This document shows positions 8,066 to 9,713 of a stretch of DNA of 64,000 nucleotides, one piece after another (positions within the stretch are counted from its first letter, which is position 1; each line of letters begins with the position of its first letter). The position numbers and the translations under genes are program-made. The stretch covers positions 32,814-96,813 of the forward strand of contig JAFVBE010000017.1 of assembly GCA_017480195.1 (NCBI GenBank). Reading direction: 5' to 3'. The notes below the pieces were generated by a model. That model saw only the letters and a list, made by a program, of their open reading frames with translations. It was not told the origin of the DNA and did not search any database. Source of the stretch: Lachnospiraceae bacterium (GTDB lineage: Bacteria; Bacillota; Clostridia; Lachnospirales; Lachnospiraceae).

Positions 8066-8503
8066 ATGGTTAGAGAGATATGACAAGATGAATTAAACAG
8101 TTTGTTAGAGCTTTATTTACATTTGCATGAAAGCTCAATACCGGATATGACAGAGCATTTAAAAGCTGCTTGGAATACGATTATTAATGATGAAAAACAT
8201 CATATTATAGTTAAGGTTGTTGATGATATGATTGTTTCCTCCTGTGTATGTGTTATTATTCCGAATCTAACCAGAAATGTAAGACCATATGCTTTTATTG
8301 AGAATGTTGTTACACATATTGATTATCGTGGAAACGGGTATGCGACAGAGTGTCTTAATTATGCAAGAGAGATAGCAAGACAGAATAATTGCTATAAAAT
8401 GATGCTGCTTACAGGCTCAAAGGAAGAAGCTACACTTAATTTTTATGAAAATGCAGGATATAACAGTTCTGATAAAACAGCTTTTATTCAGTGGCTTGAT
8501 TAA
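8066..8503 (+). pseudogene. GNAT N-acetyltransferase interrupted by an early UGA codon
   Basis: AGGGAG (8055-8060) and ATG 8066 give the reading MVREI, then TGA at 8081-8083, then QDELNSLLELYLHLHE and an otherwise intact 140-residue GNAT domain in the same frame. In related acetyltransferases the sixth residue is normally Arg (the I-R pair of the first strand), so this is most simply a CGA-to-TGA change. The acetyl-CoA loop is present (DYRGNGYATECL, about residues 91-102), and the C-terminal LNFYENAGY is intact. The next possible start, TTG 8102, has no ribosome binding site. Decay outside the stop codon is not visible, so the event is recent, or some read-through occurs (the context is UGA followed by C). 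The substrate is unknown. Confidence 0.75.
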
Positions 8504-8526: not shown

Positions 8527-8554
8527 TTTACAAATATGATAAATTGTATATAAT
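8527..8554 (+). promoter_or_regulatory. Promoter of the antitoxin RNA / toxin-GNAT locus
   Basis: TTTACA (8527-8532) and a consensus TATAAT (8549-8554) are separated by 16 nt. The predicted transcript starts about 20 nt before the first RNA repeat. Confidence 0.6.
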
Positions 8555-8560
8555 ATAATT

Positions 8561-8684
8561 AAGAAATCTTTTTAGATTTTTACCTTTCACAATGTAGGAA
8601 AAACATTGTATTATGACACAAAAACCTTTCGCAATGTAGGACACAAAACATTGCAGGCCCTATATCTTGACATATAGGGCTTTT
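8561..8684 (+). ncRNA. Candidate type III antitoxin RNA (two 42-nt repeats and terminator)
   Basis: Two tandem units begin at 8582 and 8624 (period 42 nt), both starting ACCTTTC. Each holds a hairpin: ACAATGT/ACATTGT in unit 1 and GCAATGT/ACATTGC in unit 2, so the end pair changed from A-T to G-C and stayed paired. A short AAATC/GATTT hairpin precedes them (8564-8579). A terminator follows directly: GCCCTATAT (8657-8665), loop CTTGAC, ATATAGGGC (8672-8680), TTTT. The order promoter, short RNA repeats, weak terminator, toxin gene is the hallmark of type III toxin-antitoxin loci (ToxIN, CptIN, TenpIN). The repeat number and unit length resemble what I recall for CptI. Confidence 0.7.
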
Positions 8685-8699
8685 GTATTAGGAGAAATT

Positions 8700-9713
8700 A
8701 TGATTGAGCATGGAATGTATTTTGGAAAAAATAGCTTTTATAAATTAATTAGAGATAATGGAGGTCAATGGAACGACATCAAAGAAAGACCTATAGTTTG
8801 TCTTGTTAAATCTGTTGAATGTAGTAATTTATATTGGGCGATACCTGTTGGAAATTACGAACATAGATCAATTGAGGCAAAACAACGAATTCAAACATAT
8901 ATGAGCTATAATTCAGAAGACATTAGGTCTTGTTTTTATCATATTGGTAATACTAATGAAAAATCAATTTTTTTTATTAGCGATGTAGTTCCAATTACAG
9001 ATAAGTATATAGATAGGGAATATCTTAATAAAACCGGTAAAATACATATTATTAAAAATAAAATTCTTCTTTCTGATTTAGAATATAAATTAGGGAGAAT
9101 ATTAGCATTTGAAAATAGTAATACTAATTATTTCAGACAGCATATAACAGATATAAAGCAATTTTTATTGAATGAATTAAAAGAAAATGAGAAATCAAAT
9201 AACTGTTCTATAAGAAAATGGAAGCTTGAAGATAAAGAAGAATTGGCAAAGAATCTTAATAATAAAAAGGTTCTTGATAACCTAAGGGATGGTTTGCCTT
9301 ATCCATATACTGAGAAAGATGCAGAAGAATATATTAAGGCGATGCTTTCGGCGGATGAAGATGATACTTTTGCTTTTGCAATAACTGTTGATGATGTTGT
9401 TATAGGAAGTATAGGTGTATTCCGTCGTGATAATATCCATTTTCGGACGGCTGAAATGGGCTACTATATTGGAGAAGATTATTGGGGAAAAGGATATATG
9501 ACCTATGCAGTAAAGCAAGTCTGTAAATATGTATTTGATAACACAGATATTATCAGAATATTTGCTGAACCATTTGCTTATAATATTGCGTCTTGTCGTG
9601 TATTAGAAAAATCGGGTTTTAAGTATGAAGGCACATTACGAAGCGGTGCTTTTAAGAGTGGTAAGGTAGTTGATATGAAAATGTATGCTCTATTAAAAGT
9701 AATTGAAAATTAA
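8700..9713 (+). CDS. CptN-like type III toxin fused to a GNAT acetyltransferase
   Basis: 337 residues in two parts. Residues 1-160 resemble CptN, the endoRNase of Lachnospiraceae type III toxin-antitoxin systems: MYFGKNSFYKLI, then SNLYWAIPVGNYEHR (43-56), then SIFFISDVVPITDKYI (89-104), then a helical end. Residues 168-337 form a complete RimJ-type GNAT domain (SIRKWKLEDKEEL, GYYIGEDYWGKGYMTYAV with the acetyl-CoA loop, NIASCRVLEKSGF). The start ATG 8700 has AGGAG at 8690-8694; the upstream TTG 8667 lies inside the terminator. The toxin catalytic site in ToxN/AbiQ is a Ser/Thr-Lys cluster after the 'P' of the core strand; here that position reads P-V-G-N-Y-E, so RNase activity is uncertain. 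The antitoxin-like RNA lies immediately upstream. The gene is more A+T-rich than its neighbours, which suggests acquisition. Confidence 0.72.
   Translation: MIEHGMYFGKNSFYKLIRDNGGQWNDIKERPIVCLVKSVECSNLYWAIPVGNYEHRSIEAKQRIQTYMSYNSEDIRSCFYHIGNTNEKSIFFISDVVPITDKYIDREYLNKTGKIHIIKNKILLSDLEYKLGRILAFENSNTNYFRQHITDIKQFLLNELKENEKSNNCSIRKWKLEDKEELAKNLNNKKVLDNLRDGLPYPYTEKDAEEYIKAMLSADEDDTFAFAITVDDVVIGSIGVFRRDNIHFRTAEMGYYIGEDYWGKGYMTYAVKQVCKYVFDNTDIIRIFAEPFAYNIASCRVLEKSGFKYEGTLRSGAFKSGKVVDMKMYALLKVIEN

Follow-up and report, generated by a model that had tools for sequence, protein, structure and literature searches.

A locus of the type III toxin-antitoxin kind, in which a CptN-like toxin is joined in frame to a GNAT acetyltransferase, was confirmed at positions 8527-9713 of a 64,000-nucleotide stretch of Lachnospiraceae bacterium DNA (assembly GCA_017480195.1, contig JAFVBE010000017.1; hereafter the window, all features being on the forward strand unless stated). 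On a modest balance of probability this is a CptIN-like locus whose toxin has captured a RimL/MccE-like GNAT gene in frame at its 3' end, and the sequence itself provides the anatomy, the pseudoknots, the two folds, the in-frame fusion and the conserved residues of both halves. A preliminary description of the window had proposed upstream repeats followed by a terminator, a CptN-like N-terminal domain and a complete C-terminal GNAT in one reading frame, and all of these were borne out. The fusion gene (8700..9713, ATG to stop, 337 codons) is the sole copy in its source genome, a 2.4-Mb draft of 63 contigs that is 84.7% complete and 5.5% contaminated, and the three further matches to the protein in that genome (31-38%) cover the GNAT half alone.

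The toxin and acetyltransferase domains

Residues 1-166 (8700..9197) form the CptN-like domain, as judged by profile, structure match and conserved positions. The solved CptN structure (4rmo) is matched with E=9e-8 by the single sequence and 8e-13 by a clade profile of ten. As the structural match list for the whole protein was filled by GNAT matches, the N-terminal domain was modelled separately, and its five best structural matches are all type III toxins sharing the ToxN/AbiQ/CptN fold, the likeness on which the preliminary description had made its proposal depend. All 39 positions that are invariant in the 14 relatives aligned are kept. Identity to ToxN of the ToxIN system and to AbiQ is 6-11% in structural alignments, and the accessible part of PMC5086642 mentions no fused enzyme in those systems; likewise the CptN toxin of Eubacterium rectale (PDB 4RMO), as described in the accessible part of PMC4627078, differs from the window toxin in having no GNAT fused to it.

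Residues 168-337 (9201..9710) pass the Pfam cut-off for PF13302 and adopt a GNAT fold whose closest structures are RimL, MccE and SpeG, with the conserved residues of the half retained. The domain shares 18-20% identity with RimL and MccE and differs from them in its link to a toxin domain, MccE being a fusion in its own right. The NCBIfam equivalogs for RimL (L7/L12-serine; 45 of 184 bits) and RimJ (S5-alanine; 32.6 of 190 bits) were both missed. Of 45 close relatives 39 are separate genes of 154-217 codons, and the open frames that precede the relatives have no common size or distance pattern (positions alone were compared, the genes being unnamed), so that the kin of this GNAT look like ordinary enzymes. 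Some relatives are joined to a second acetyltransferase (L061 1719-2702, L021 1492-2442, L028 1198-2145, L031 1510-2457 and L054 2365-3531).

The preliminary description had also raised the possibility that the RNA holds both activities, with the GNAT as a further toxin, which we now regard as scarcely probable. Type II systems do include GNAT toxins such as TacT and AtaT, which are toxic and paired with a protein antitoxin, and the window likewise places a domain of this superfamily in a toxin-antitoxin setting, here joined to a toxin domain, but with an RNA as the partner. The occurrence of most close relatives as separate genes without a pattern of preceding frames, together with RimL, MccE and SpeG as the nearest structures, speaks against a toxic GNAT. 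No open frame of at least 60 codons is listed between 8503 and 8667. The simplest view of the C-terminal GNAT is that the complex carries it as a second enzyme.

The join between the two domains

The nearest standalone toxin, L053, is 74% identical to the window protein over 167 columns and ends in ELNENQNKS followed by a stop, its last residue aligning with residue 167, while other standalone toxins extend up to 11 residues beyond this end. The window sequence over the junction (9198..9203) is ELKENEKS-NN-CSIRKW, the first of its two asparagines being the place where standalone GNATs start (for example MDCYIRKW in L006). The end of a toxin and the start of a GNAT thus meet here in frame. The codon at the GNAT start position is AAT (codon 167), which means that the GNAT could be translated only within the chain, or else from a weak start further upstream; with no start codon at the usual GNAT place, the alternative of two distinct genes whose intervening stop was missed is ruled out.

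A single case in a draft of 63 contigs with 5.5% contamination raises the question of whether the assembly has wrongly joined two pieces of DNA. This we consider very improbable, as the join is in frame and falls between the toxin end and the GNAT start position, and as shared sequence across it does not exceed the length expected by chance (the longest exact words being 5-8 nucleotides in seven comparisons, against a shuffled mean of 6.7 and maximum of 10). In the structural model a continuous helix is predicted from residue 149 to 167 and to run into the GNAT (predicted local distance difference test, pLDDT, 85.5; predicted template modelling score, pTM, 0.59), the pTM leaving the placing of the two domains uncertain. 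The closeness of both domains in one chain and this predicted helix would suit a GNAT that acetylates the toxin or a partner and so tunes ribonuclease (RNase) activity or RNA binding. We find such self-control hard to credit, the class-A toxin relatives seen having the same RNA and no GNAT.

A pseudoknot repeat RNA precedes the gene

Upstream of the fusion gene lie two tandem repeats, 42 nucleotides apart, within a putative antitoxin RNA (8578..8654) that passes the gathering cut-off of the Rfam family RF02920 (Fusobacteriales-1; 60 versus 52.1 bits). Repeat 1 (8582..8623) is predicted to fold through stems S1 (8583-8585/8596-8598) and S2 (8589-8595/8603-8609), with a loop 2 of just 4 nucleotides, and repeat 2 (8624..8654) through S1 (8625-8627/8638-8640) and S2 (8631-8637/8648-8654). 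The two differ by a compensatory change, the outer S2 pair being A-U in the first and G-C in the second. The same repeat was found in sequences upstream of toxin relatives, and 35 repeats were gathered at 12 class-A loci, the window among them. Only the long stem S2 served to pick them, which leaves the 3-bp stem S1, the one closing the pseudoknot, as the sole free test, and all 105 of its cells pair, in nine combinations (shuffles gave a mean of 75 and a maximum of 87, none of 2000 being as high). In a MAFFT alignment of 34 repeats all 340 cells pair, at most 52.7% doing so with slid partners, and there are 47 double changes against a shuffled mean of 12.3, counts that are not independent events since the repeats are kin to each other. 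H-type pseudoknots, backed by strong covariation, fit these repeats, and the topology is that described for CptI in the accessible part of PMC4627078.

RF02920 precedes the toxin gene in 12 of the 12 class-A relatives given (L053, L140, L033, L137, L142, L145, L161-L163 and L165-L167, the window being additional), in none of five loci with the other repeat type and, as a difference from the window RNA, in none of the three canonical CptN loci tested. Under stricter filters it occurs in four of 383 genomes of the order, three times before a CptN-like gene (the window, G640 and G543).

The remainder of the RNA unit consists of a promoter-like site (TTTACA-16-TATAAT, 8527..8554; 11 of 12 matches, such sites in the region not exceeding the chance number), a short hairpin near the expected RNA 5' end (8562..8581; by fold, with a similar hairpin seen by eye at the same place in L053, L140 and L033), an intrinsic terminator that separates the repeat RNA from the toxin gene (8655..8682; an 11-pair stem, a 6-nucleotide loop and a T-rich tail) and, by direct reading, a GGAG ribosome-binding site (8691..8694).

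Distribution of the fusion and a second enzyme fusion

No other CptN-GNAT fusion was found in 37 genomes of the genus, among the matches listed for 299 genomes of the family, in 51 related loci of the genome collection, or, by toxin-half query and frame length, in 392 genomes of the order, 391 of the class and 398 of the phylum. These genome sets overlap, and the searches set aside G554 (a 460-codon frame with three internal stops), G721 (300 codons, E=1e-3) and the N-terminal parts of long frames that gave weak GNAT matches. Among plasmids the whole protein matched 193 records, none covering 80% of the query at a single site and with the 15 matches listed confined to the GNAT half, and the N-terminal domain matched one record (31%). 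In viral contigs none was found with the whole protein, and the query L136, described below, found one locus, by its toxin half only. Searching the genus for synteny through the downstream neighbour gave a best likeness of about 33% among the matches listed. Candidates rejected as the same architecture were the 388-codon frame of L054, whose N-terminal part is another acetyltransferase, and the proteins of 957 codons in G535 and 812 codons in G420, which are large proteins with a weakly CptN-like start. Frames with such a start stand at 1140-4013 of L134 (957 codons) and 1757-4195 of L135 (812 codons; DUF6674).

Above 60 bits the clade profile recovers 21 distinct loci (25 rows less repeated copies of the window and two duplicate contigs); an enzyme follows at the C terminus in two of them, the window and L136. 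At 2450-3722 of L136 (G472:C40) a CptN-like domain is followed by a P-loop kinase (AAA_18, residues 169-278), and upstream lie, by eye, three repeats of another type and a terminator; each repeat has pseudoknot pairs, from a permissive scan that gives chance hits too. Both loci thus encode a CptN-like toxin and then a C-terminal enzyme behind repeats and a terminator, but L136 has an AAA_18-type kinase in place of the GNAT and a different repeat type, and it sits on a separate branch of the clade, so that its fusion is independent. Relatives of its kinase occur without the toxin half, including in G472. As the searches found no homologous CptN-GNAT fusion, the expectation that repeats would precede such fusions could be checked only on the independent kinase fusion, which does have repeats. 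The literature searched yielded no fusion of a type III toxin to an enzyme; the preliminary description likewise knew of none between an RNase toxin and a GNAT.

It is conceivable, if doubtful, that the C terminus of CptN-like toxins is a recurrent site of capture for ordinary enzymes and that the repeat RNA gates a non-toxin enzyme or addicts the cell to it. Somewhat less unlikely is a neutral accident, in which a working CptIN-like locus was recently fused to its neighbour in one lineage and the GNAT is a tolerated passenger bringing no gain. The searches yielded no second CptN-GNAT fusion, and the GNAT seems to fuse readily, given its relatives joined to other acetyltransferases; against an accident stand the conserved residues kept in both halves and the existence of another enzyme fusion, of independent origin, that likewise lies behind repeat RNAs.

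A working model and the points against it

In type III systems the toxin cuts the precursor RNA, and the pseudoknots so released assemble with the toxin as an inactive ring (accessible parts of PMC4627078 and PMC5086642). By what is known of the family, RNA processing, inhibition, toxicity, RNase activity and control by the RNA would be expected of the window toxin too. One promoter would drive the repeat RNA, and a leaky terminator would pass a minor share of transcripts into the toxin gene. The N-terminal domain would cut the RNA into single pseudoknots, which would close on it and hold it inactive, and loss of the RNA supply, through loss of the locus or phage shut-off of the host, would free it to cut cellular RNA. 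The GNAT on the same chain may be a second, non-toxic enzyme (for N-terminal or small-molecule acetylation) that would in this way be retained along with an addictive locus and produced only when the RNA-protein complex is; its activity, its substrate and any gain from the coupling are a guess.

Several observations weigh against capture of a GNAT by a working CptIN-like locus. The exact CptN-GNAT fusion was found once, in a draft assembly with no reads to inspect. The NCBIfam NF047359 CptIN equivalog cut-off was missed (55.3 of 90 bits), for which reason we file the locus as a CptIN-like sister clade and not as a member of the equivalog. The active site of CptN is a Ser-Ser-Arg triad according to the accessible part of PMC4627078 (residues 51-53 by count on the 4rmo sequence). 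Its Ser-Ser reads Gly51-Asn52 in the window and Gly-[Asn/Lys/Asp] in all 15 toxins aligned, so that RNase activity of the domain is not assured; Arg56 is invariant among these 15 (by sequence alignment). The window has two repeats, the first shortened, against three in 11 of the 12 class-A loci counted; a count of two is within the known range, since the E. rectale CptIN locus also has two and a single CptI repeat sufficed there (accessible part of PMC4627078). The fourth RF02920 array of the order (G371) is an orphan with no toxin gene behind it, and the clade toxins L141 and L143 showed no repeats by eye among 22 upstream stretches (duplicates included). The ratios of non-synonymous to synonymous substitution rates, 0.08-0.22 for the toxin (four of five pairs computable) and 0.05-0.07 for the GNAT (four of eight), rest on near-saturated synonymous rates and mostly predate the fusion.

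Genomic setting and related loci

The neighbours upstream are ATP synthase-like and the downstream neighbour, on the opposite strand, is GGDEF/EAL-like, names that come from reading translations. Just upstream, at 8066-8503, is a second GNAT-like frame (PF00583), in which a possible ATG is followed at codon 6 by an in-frame TGA; as listed it begins further on, at a TTG, and it is no close relative of the fused GNAT. As the origin of the fused domain this frame (8102-8503) was ruled out (E=0.09). PADLOC returned no families for either protein scanned. The orphan array noted above (L204 ~1500-1690; G371:C8:84725-84844) comprises two RF02920 repeats, a terminator and a ribosome-site-like stretch. 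Elsewhere in the clade, a CptN-like gene sits between N-6 DNA methylase and type I specificity genes (L185 34-3366; G1067), neighbours that hint at a defence role. Standalone class-A toxins with repeat RNA were seen on phage contigs (L161-L167 from IMG/VR, and L201, Clostridioides phage pCD1602_4).

Implications

According to the accessible part of a 2012 survey, contact with the antitoxin limits which toxin domains recombine, and no polymorphic toxin with an RNA regulator was known to it (PMC3482391). On the doubtful reading of recurrent capture, a toxin-antitoxin locus would be able to convert a gene beside it into cargo that is protected and RNA-controlled, or else add it to phage defence as a second arm. 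With two independent fusions, those of the window and L136, it can be asked directly whether control by an RNA antitoxin extends to a second activity. A likely role also follows from the clade for two orphan families, both present on phage contigs: RF02920, filed in Rfam as a Cis-reg type named for Fusobacteriales and for which, as for its name, no paper was found in the literature searched, is likely the repeat RNA of a clade of CptN-like toxins, and phrog_33519, of 'unknown function', is matched by the class-A toxin of the phage contigs and is likely such a toxin.
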